Source of the DNA: Pseudaquabacterium terrae
GTDB taxonomy: Bacteria; Pseudomonadota; Gammaproteobacteria; Burkholderiales; Burkholderiaceae_C
Reading direction: 5' to 3'
NCBI RefSeq assembly: GCF_013266755.1
Contig: NZ_JABRWJ010000007.1
Span: 1 to 64,000 of the forward strand
Length of the DNA stretch: 64,000 nt
The position numbers and the translations under genes were made by a program. The notes beneath the pieces are model-generated. The model saw only the letters and a list, made by a program, of their open reading frames with translations. It was not told the origin of the DNA and made no database searches. Of this stretch, positions 16,103 to 20,244 are shown piece by piece. Position 1 is the first letter of the stretch, and every line of letters starts with the position of its first letter.

Positions 16103-18730
<2,628 letters not shown>

Positions 18731-18789
18731 TTCCCGCTCGTCCGGCGCGTTCGGAGTTGTTGGTCGCAGACATTCAGCGGCCTGTGCGC
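18731..18789. other. Spacer between alaS and repeat unit
   Basis: A 59-bp stretch between the alaS stop and the first repeat unit. I see no gene and no separate simple terminator; the repeat unit that follows may serve that purpose. Confidence 0.4.
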
Positions 18790-19010
18790 CAAAGCCGGCG
18801 GCGGGCACGCTGGCCGGGCGGAGGCCGCGATCGGCCCTGGGGGCCGATTGCCCTGCGCTGCTCGCGGACGCGGGATGGGCGGACAACTCGGCCCCGAGTA
18901 CAGGGCCTCAGACACGTCCGCCCAGCTCCCTTCGGTCGCCGACCCGCGCCCGCTGCGCTGCTCGGCGCGACCTCCTGACTGCCCGGCCAGCGTGCCCGCC
19001 GCCGGCTTTG
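18790..19010. repeat. Hairpin repeat unit, left copy
   Basis: A 221-bp unit bounded by a perfect 30-bp inverted repeat (18790-18819 and 18981-19010, starting CAAAGCCGG). Its core (18831-18968) is 138 bp and is the reverse complement, with 8 differences, of the core at 19131-19268. Inside the core are GGGCGGAC (18877-18884) and GTCCGCCC (18916-18923), able to pair, and a small ACTCGG-CC-CCGAGT hairpin. It resembles a non-autonomous mobile repeat (MITE-like) or a structured intergenic repeat. There is no coding frame worth keeping. Confidence 0.8.
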
Positions 19011-19087
19011 CAGAGATGGGGTGGCATGCGACGAGAAACCTCTGCGTGACGGGTGTTGGGTCTTCTTCGCGCACCTCAGTGGTTTTG

Positions 19088-19309
19088 CAAAGCCGGGTGC
19101 GGGCTGCGTGGCCCGGGCATTCAGAGATGAGCGCCGAGCAGCGCAGCGGGCGCGGGTCGGCGACCGAAGGGAGCTGGGTCCACGTGTCTGAGGCCCTGTA
19201 CTCGGGGCCGAGTTGTGGACCCATCCCGCGTCCGCGAGCAGCGCAGGGTAGTCGGCCCCCAGGGCCGACCGCCATCTCGCCCGGGCCGCGCAGCCCGCGT
19301 CCGGCTTTG
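19088..19309. repeat. Hairpin repeat unit, right copy, inverted
   Basis: A 222-bp unit in opposite orientation to the left copy. Its ends are 31-bp inverted repeats (19088-19118 and 19279-19309, 28 of 31 matching, also starting CAAAGCCGG). Core 19131-19268 matches the left core. The internal pair is GGGTCCAC (19176-19183) and GTGGACCC (19215-19222): three base pairs differ from the left copy, and all remain paired. The two units together can form one very large cruciform or RNA hairpin with a loop of about 160 nt, lying between convergent genes. Confidence 0.8.
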
Positions 19310-19368
19310 CCGCACCAATGGTTGCAAGACCTGCAACTCAACAGCGCACCGAAGGCTGCTTGAAGTAC

Positions 19369-20244
19369 CTATTCCTTGACCGCCCCGGTCATCCCCGACA
19401 CGTAGTACTCGACGAAGAACGAGTACAGCACCGCCACCGGTAGCGAGCCGAGCAGGGCGCCGGCCATCAGCGCCCCCCAGTGGTAGACGTCGCCCTCGAC
19501 CAGCTCGGTGATCACGCCGACCGGCACCGTCTTGGTCTCCGACGACGAGACGAAGGTCAGCGCGTAGATGAACTCGTTCCACGACAGCGTGAACGAGAAG
19601 ATGCCGGCCGAGATCAGCCCGGGCACCGCCAGCGGCAAGACGATCTTGGTCAGGATCTGCCAGCGTGTCGCGCCGTCGATCAGCGCGCATTCCTCGAGCT
19701 CGTAGGGGATCGAGCGGAAGTAGCCCATCAGCAGCCAGGTCGAGAACGGCACCAGGAAGGTCGGGTAGCTCAGGATCAGCGCGAAGCGCGAATCGAAGAG
19801 CCCGAGCTGGAAGATGATCGTTGCCAGCGGGATGAACAGGATGCTGGGCGGCACGAGATAGGCGAGGAAGATCGCCAAGCCCACCGAGCGTGAGCCGCGA
19901 AAGCGCAGCCGCTCGATCGCATAAGCCGCAAAGACGCTGGCCACCAGCGACAGCGTGGTCGCCACCACCGACACCAGCAGCGTGTTCAGCAGCCACTGCG
20001 GGTACTCGGTGTCGAACAGCAGCTTGCGAAAGTGCGCCAGCGTCGGCTTGAGGATCCAGAACGGGTTCGCGCTGCGCGACACCAGTTCCTCGTTCGGCTT
20101 GAACGAGGTCATCGCCATCCAGTAGAACGGGAACAGCAGCACGATCAGGAACACGCCGAGCGGCAGGTAGGTGCTGATCCAGCGCCGCGGCAGCGTGTCC
20201 AGGTAGTGCATGCCGCCCGAGTCGGCGGTGGGCTCGGCCTTCAT
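19369..20244 (-). CDS. Carbohydrate ABC transporter permease, MalG/UgpE-like
   Basis: A 291-residue inner-membrane permease with about six membrane segments (first about residues 27-50) and the EAA-type loop in EECALIDGATRWQILTKIVLP. This places it in the CUT1 family of sugar importers. It is the last gene of the four-gene transporter run and overlaps the partner permease by 4 bp, so the two are probably translated together. The sugar is not readable from sequence. Confidence 0.93.
   Translation of the reverse strand: MKAEPTADSGGMHYLDTLPRRWISTYLPLGVFLIVLLFPFYWMAMTSFKPNEELVSRSANPFWILKPTLAHFRKLLFDTEYPQWLLNTLLVSVVATTLSLVASVFAAYAIERLRFRGSRSVGLAIFLAYLVPPSILFIPLATIIFQLGLFDSRFALILSYPTFLVPFSTWLLMGYFRSIPYELEECALIDGATRWQILTKIVLPLAVPGLISAGIFSFTLSWNEFIYALTFVSSSETKTVPVGVITELVEGDVYHWGALMAGALLGSLPVAVLYSFFVEYYVSGMTGAVKE

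Follow-up and report, generated by a model that had tools for sequence, protein, structure and literature searches.

Layout of the twin element

Two hairpin units that face each other between alaS and a sugar ABC permease gene raise the question of whether their folding is under selection and what kind of repeat they form. We addressed this question computationally in a window of 64,000 nucleotides, that is, the whole stretch of DNA analysed here (contig C54 of the 8.04-Mb host genome). The original prediction, made from the window's sequence, read the locus as a structured, mobile-type repeat and described units of 221 and 222 bp, each with its own terminal inverted repeat of 30-31 bp, which we confirm to the base. 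The parts of the locus are as follows, with the strand given where a feature has one.

18786-19316: whole twin element (arm A, spacer, and arm B), 531 bp, its limits set by similarity to the twin on contig C1 (query 7-537 of 18780-19320)
18790-19010, minus: arm A (unit A), 221 bp; the folded strand is the minus strand, running from the inner to the outer end
18790-18819: arm A terminal inverted repeat, outer side; 30 of 30 positions pair with 18981-19010
18981-19010: arm A terminal inverted repeat, inner side; partner 18790-18819
18830-18848, minus: arm A side hairpin ATCGGCCC..GGGCCGAT (helix 6); the changed pair is G-C or C-G in other copies
18853-18864: 12-bp direct repeat CTGCGCTGCTCG, first copy, beside the core stem, read from the sequence
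18953-18964: 12-bp direct repeat CTGCGCTGCTCG, second copy, read from the sequence
18877-18884, minus: arm A variable stem GGGCGGAC (helix 3), the covarying stem of the original prediction; partner 18916-18923
18916-18923, minus: arm A variable stem GTCCGCCC; partner 18877-18884
18890-18894, minus: arm A inner hairpin stem GGCCC (helix 4), with three other versions in other copies; partner 18903-18907
18903-18907, minus: arm A inner hairpin stem GGGCC; partner 18890-18894
19011-19087: spacer between the arms, 77 bp, by eye similar in the C1 and C2 twins
19088-19309, plus: arm B (unit B), 222 bp; the folded strand is the plus strand
19088-19118: inner side of the 31-bp terminal inverted repeat of arm B, 3 mismatches; partner 19279-19309
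19279-19309: arm B terminal inverted repeat, outer side; partner 19088-19118
19176-19183, plus: arm B variable stem GGGTCCAC; partner 19215-19222
19215-19222, plus: arm B variable stem GTGGACCC; partner 19176-19183
19185-19191, plus: arm B internal loop, 5' side, TGTCTGA; TGTYYGA in 25 of 26 type 3 cores from other genera
19210-19214, plus: arm B internal loop, 3' side, GAGTT; the same in 26 of 26 type 3 cores
ends at 18730, plus: alaS, flanking gene, name assigned from its translation
ends at 19369, minus: sugar ABC permease, flanking gene, name assigned from its translation

The best 138-bp cores (A, 18831-18968; B, 19131-19268) are reverse complements with exactly 8 differences, six of which make up three pairs of one internal stem (GGGCGGAC/GTCCGCCC in A versus GGGTCCAC/GTGGACCC in B), so that the claim of changes on both sides with pairing kept proved exact on recount. 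The three mismatches in the terminal repeat of arm B are, read on the plus strand, G.T without exception. On the plus strand, the folding energy of unit A is 9 SD lower than in dinucleotide shuffles, and that of the whole element 27 SD lower. From the differences between the cores the original prediction inferred that folding is selected, and this part fared differently: the window's two units alone could not show it, whereas the copies in related genomes described below support it. Since A and B are subfamilies, the six stem differences could represent one inherited change, and because template-switch repair of palindromes yields paired changes, these can arise without selection. Besides the stems, the direct repeat that flanks the core stem changes in sequence between core types, with both of its sides staying alike (CTGCGCTGCTCG here; TGCGGTCCTC in type 2 first arms).

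Copies in the host genome and its genus

The search for further copies proposed with the original prediction was successful at three levels, namely, the same genome, the genus, and other genera. Within the host genome (G000), the closest twin lies at C1:579571-580102 and is 91% identical over 531 bp; contig C2 begins inside another twin, C34 holds a B arm carrying an A-type stem, and C8, C6, and C17 each break off within a single arm. Two more copies (C1:594479 and C55:1) have a type 2 core in the same twin layout and with the same side hairpin. As seven contigs of this assembly (C2, C6, C8, C17, C10, C45, and C55) start or stop inside copies, its gaps may hide copies. Internal deletions have produced mini copies: at C34:182813-182926 and C55:64818-64926 the outer halves of B and A are fused. 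At C2:114570-114601, the terminal repeat stands alone.

Type 2 matches, many of them weak, occur in 12 of 21 genomes of the genus and are numerous in G003, G018, and G016. Where a genus locus has two substantial type 2 arms, the best-match table gives one arm of each kind (one T2arm and one other); the exception is L240, outside the genus, where both arms are alike by eye. The copies share the traits of miniature inverted-repeat transposable elements (MITEs)—terminal inverted repeats, no gene inside, and several copies—with one exception, L188, described at the end.

Relatives across the Burkholderiales

Exact sequence patterns had suggested a restriction to the genus, with matches only in JACRAZ01 in one search and in G003 alone of 200 genomes in another, but the same patterns also missed the host genome's own copies, and a covariance model found other genera. 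This model, R1, was built from 34 type 2 cores and run on a sample of 250 family genomes from a larger family. At E ≤ 1e-3 it matched 81 of the 250 genomes and 53 of 141 genera, and at E ≤ 1e-6 it matched 48 of the listed genomes, in a search with rough E-values, no shuffled control, and at most 16 candidates scored per genome. Among 18 R1 loci examined, 17 of them from other genera, 13 have a further match on the other strand, the minus-strand match coming first in every case, and 16 carry a type 3 core.

A second model, R2, was built from 26 type 3 cores from 16 genomes; the corresponding alignment (A6) holds 26 of 32 model matches, leaving out those of L229 (2) and L230 (2, both type 2) and two weak ones of L246. 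Each of 10 chosen genomes has between 4 and 78 R2 matches. Among the 150 matches listed, which represent 7 of the 10 genomes searched, 91 fall into 46 neighbour pairs within 700 bp, whose orientation is minus/plus in 43 cases, minus/minus in 3, and reversed in none; 22 of these listed pairs come from G178 and none from G193, and the remaining 59 matches have no close partner in the list. In the window, R2 matched arm A only (18870-18948, minus), weakly, with 20.5 bits, which equals a chance match there, and arm B is absent among the matches listed. In that ranking, four type 2 matches are followed by four type 1 cores on the right strand with 20-25 bits, one of them tied with the 20.5-bit chance match; the remaining type 1 cores of those sources are absent among the matches listed. 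In G178, tandem core copies lie exactly 99 bp apart at two places (C47:264041-264237 and C48:162055-162251). A distant blastn search of plasmids and phages gave no match to the element, and one exact pattern gave 0 matches in viral contigs. Altogether, the repeat is widespread between genes of Burkholderiales and apparently mobile.

Covariation of the stems and conservation of the loop

The stems of the element change as pairs, and its internal loop is nearly fixed in the window's core type and in the type 3 relatives. Pairs changed on both sides number 16 of 56 in type 1 (12 sequences including 6 truncated ones; this alignment, A1, excludes mini copies), 34 of 80 in type 2 second arms (20 sequences), 28 of 71 in type 2 first arms (14 sequences; in this alignment, A2, three of 17 were dropped, L184 as short, L190 for an insertion, and L208 as divergent), and 16 of 29 in type 3 cores (26 sequences), the last two counts being without a shuffle control. 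For type 2 second arms and type 1, 0 of 500 shuffles gave a count as high, and sliding the two structures tested by 1-3 columns left no more than 9 and 4 such pairs; the counts are not independent events, since the sequences are related by descent and each structure was predicted from the alignment on which it was counted. Rather than breaking pairing as often as keeping it, the copies pair in 98.4% of cells in type 2 second arms and in 98.1% in type 1. Rfam gave five matches altogether for the type 1, 2, and 3 loci, each far under its gathering score.

The two sides of the internal loop read TGTCTGA and GAGTT in the window and in the type 1 copies long enough to include them (11 and 12 of 12, respectively). 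In the 26 type 3 cores, mean column identity is 0.88 and 1.00 for the two loop sides versus 0.76 and 0.75 for the stem. Loops are not fixed everywhere, because in type 2, whose loop sequence differs from that of types 1 and 3, unpaired columns by one prediction are more variable than paired ones (0.22 versus 0.18; the values for type 1 are 0.06 versus 0.11). The evidence for structural selection, which the original prediction had sought in a single stem, thus lies in covariation over most helices, in a near-invariant type 3 loop beside a varying stem, and in a tolerance of G.T on one strand.

Strand bias of the fold

This last point comes from a comparison in which G.U was forbidden in the fold and single mismatches within helices were read on the outward strand, which runs from the spacer to the outside; if both strands fold, or if neither is selected, G.T and A.C should be equally frequent. 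On the outward strand we counted 64 distinct contexts with G.T and 12 with A.C (99 and 24 cells, respectively), with p 1e-9 if these are independent, which is an upper claim because related copies partly share contexts. A further 131 mismatch cells are neither G.T nor A.C. Folding the complementary strand instead gave 66 versus 10 contexts, and the excess of G.T appears in each of five sets, least markedly in type 3 (7 versus 3 and 11 versus 4); type 1 entered with 7 of its 12 units, those over 200 nt. Folding energy favours the outward strand in 35 of the 37 units of type 2; among the 12 of type 1 it does so in 8, and the other four are truncated copies. That the folded strand runs from the outer to the inner end, a candidate that we had considered, is reversed by both the energy and the G.T comparisons. 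Small hairpin loops on the outward strand are GNA in 148 of 359 cases and TNC in none of the 359; GNA loops are exceptionally stable in DNA.

The bias of G.T over A.C therefore indicates that selection acts on the outward strand of each arm in its single-stranded state, and it argues for folding as RNA or as single-stranded DNA. Because the outward strand is kept foldable in each arm, each DNA strand bears its well-folding arm on its 3' side. The fixed internal loop looks RNA-like.

Genomic setting and apparent mobility

The original prediction placed the units between convergent genes, which is true of the window copy (alaS on plus, permease on minus) and does not extend to a general rule. 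Among genus loci, 23 rows with both flanks (L188 counted as one row) comprise 15 codirectional, 7 convergent, and 1 divergent site; 24 rows of later loci, some of them duplicates, comprise 18, 5, and 1, respectively. One flank is missing at 18 genus loci and 14 later loci, and gene calls outside the genus were made with the codon table of the window's genus. Divergent sites are rare, at 2 of 47 rows (p 0.0002) or 2 of 42 (p 0.0006), values that are rough because the rows hold duplicates (e.g., L250/L257, L238/L262, and L230/L191). With divergent sites rare and 12 of 47 rows convergent, the window's convergent setting is thus ordinary.

Two sites that are filled in G150 are nearly empty in its close relative G310. 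At one site of G150, a twin parts two genes by 610 bp where G310 has a gap of 6 bp, with 94-95% identity there; at a second, 699 bp stand against 14 bp in G310, with flanks 91 and 95% identical. Both near-empty sites are imprecise, with extra non-element bases beside the element, and it is possible that they reflect deletion in G310. Neither shows a clear target-site duplication; a possible 7-bp repeat, CGCTCAG, seen by eye at one of them may be chance. The flanks of 6 G150 copies, compared with those of 14 G310 copies out of more in that genome, gave no match except one of 155 bp at 71%. We also sought an empty site at alaS in relatives, and the sequence downstream of the gene differs in those compared.

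No transposase or recombinase was seen inside the copies, and no parent transposon with the same ends was noticed among the loci examined, where contigs break inside copies. The Y1/RAYT transposase family PF01797 is present in 13 of 21 genus genomes, with one match each in G013 and G016 and 0 matches in G000, G003, and G018.

Comparison with known systems

Several known systems resemble the element in part. REP/BIME and REPIN sequences, which are served by RAYT transposases, are paired inverted intergenic palindromes with units of 20-40 bp that are moved as single-stranded hairpins; the present element likewise consists of paired inverted palindromes between genes, but its units measure 220-240 bp. 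The distribution of PF01797 just described led us to reject membership in the REP/RAYT group. Integron attC sites fold as hairpins of one strand, their stems covarying and certain unpaired bases staying fixed; by comparison, both arms of the present element fold, on opposite strands, and a cassette array was not noticed. The closest published kinds are bcr1 and the betaproteobacterial BRE, the latter compared by its description alone. The bcr1 element is a mobile single unit of 147-167 bp from another phylum and is not known to form an inverted twin. In the Bacillus cereus group, bcr1 is described as lying between genes, keeping a conserved fold, and showing traits of mobile elements (PMC2267715, PMC3110155), all of which the present element shares.

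According to the part of its description used here, BRE is found in Betaproteobacteria including Comamonadaceae (Polaromonas, Delftia, and Acidovorax) and is chromosomal, mostly intergenic, and GC-rich, with a unit of 75-91 bp that also occurs in tandem copies; its copy number varies, mobility has been suggested for it, and the Bordetella bprJ region containing it gives rise to two transcripts, one of 80 nt and one longer (PMC3110155). Host range, intergenic position, a size near that of our core, and the tandem habit (compare the G178 cores 99 bp apart) bring BRE close to the present family, whereas that portion of the description contains no twin arms, inverted ends, covariation, or strand-specific fold (PMC3110155). 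Judged from this description, BRE may be the core of the present family, so that part of the latter would already be in print. Burkholderiales-1, again going by a partial description, is a candidate relative (PMC2864571). Searches of the open-licence literature by sequence words and for similar repeats turned up no closer kind.

Candidate explanations

We favor, with a little more belief than doubt, the view that the family is a non-autonomous mobile element both of whose ends are recognised as folded single strands. The members of the family, about 530-640 bp long, have two arms that are inverted to each other and as a rule differ in kind, each arm being a long branched imperfect palindrome. 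A putative enzyme acting in trans would recognise the folded single strands at both ends, reading the fixed loops and accepting any stem sequence, and would then move the element; the folded strand at each end would be the one with the outermost 3' end, as would fit a transferred strand. Copies would come to lie between genes, mainly past the ends of genes, since those landing in promoter regions would be lost. We speculate further, although we think it rather improbable, that this could be a new kind of transposable element in which recognition of each end depends on the fold of the single strand that bears the outer 3' end, a putative recombinase reading TGTYYGA/GAGTT while the stems drift, so that both 3' sides would carry DNA-aptamer-like ends.

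The same fold could instead belong to a structured RNA element: read-through transcripts would fold the well-oriented arm, the fold would protect, process, or end mRNAs behind genes, and the inverted twin would let the element act on transcripts from either side. A strand-specific fold and a near-invariant loop beside covarying stems are typical of RNA, 45 of the 47 flank rows lie behind at least one gene, alaS of G003 (L149) has an ordinary-looking terminator instead (a GC hairpin and a T-rich tail), and transcription is described for the bprJ region with BRE, possibly a relative (PMC3110155). However, from either flank the well-folding arm is the far arm for a transcript, and single surviving arms point either way relative to the gene (L175 and L189 against its direction, L182 with it). 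Moreover, scanning positions 18700-19400 gave no sigma-70-like promoter and a single terminator-like site (18741-18755; 0.3 expected by chance), which lies outside the element, the spacers of other copies being read by eye. We therefore regard an RNA element as possible but doubtful. Less probable still, and in our opinion unlikely, is an ordinary MITE, whose terminal inverted repeats a DDE transposase would bind as double-stranded DNA with the interior as a passenger; inverted ends, small size, intergenic position, multiple copies, and varying position all suit it, but the covariation extends to interior helices and comes with a strand bias, and the sites and loci read gave neither a convincing target-site duplication nor a parent transposon.

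The strand bias also bears on two further explanations. A cruciform, or another double-stranded protein site that depends on the palindrome being present in the two strands simultaneously, would agree with palindromes that have inverted twins, but, because both strands would fold, it predicts no asymmetry between G.T and A.C; the asymmetry observed led us to reject it, and we consider it very improbable. Mutation alone has even less to recommend it. Long GC-rich hairpins are known template-switching substrates, and copying one hairpin arm onto the other could yield paired changes free of selection; the mini copies made by internal deletion and the greater variability of unpaired columns in type 2 are in keeping with this. 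Yet such repair predicts equal numbers of G.T and A.C, against the 64 and 12 observed, and loops kept no better than stems, against the better-kept loops of the 26 type 3 cores. On these two grounds we dismissed unselected palindrome repair, which is hardly credible as the source of the pattern.

Under the reading that we favor, that of a mobile element with folded single-stranded ends, the family would offer a test bed for recognition of mobile elements by shape on one strand; if it is RNA instead, it would be an abundant class of structured RNA behind genes. In either case, a repeat under clear structural selection and without an Rfam match is matched in about a fifth to a third of the 250 sampled family genomes. 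The comparison of G.T with A.C mismatches, with G.U forbidden in the fold, distinguishes palindrome repair from selection that acts on one strand, and it could be applied to other repeats as well.

Additional features of other copies

The exception among the copies, L188 (1713-3023, on G018:C9), is a type 2 twin with a spacer of 1.3 kb, compared with the usual 50-130 bp or so. This spacer contains an orphan gene of 220 aa (2041-2703, minus), which had no significant Pfam, PADLOC, or plasmid match and is either cargo or a later insertion. Many copies of two genera have a further inverted repeat of about 20 bp (CGGCCC.TTGC.G...), located 25-60 bp outside the arms (flanks of L301-L319; L051:30-47 and 722-739). 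Absent by eye at the window copy, this outer repeat changes in matched pairs, again by eye, where it is present.
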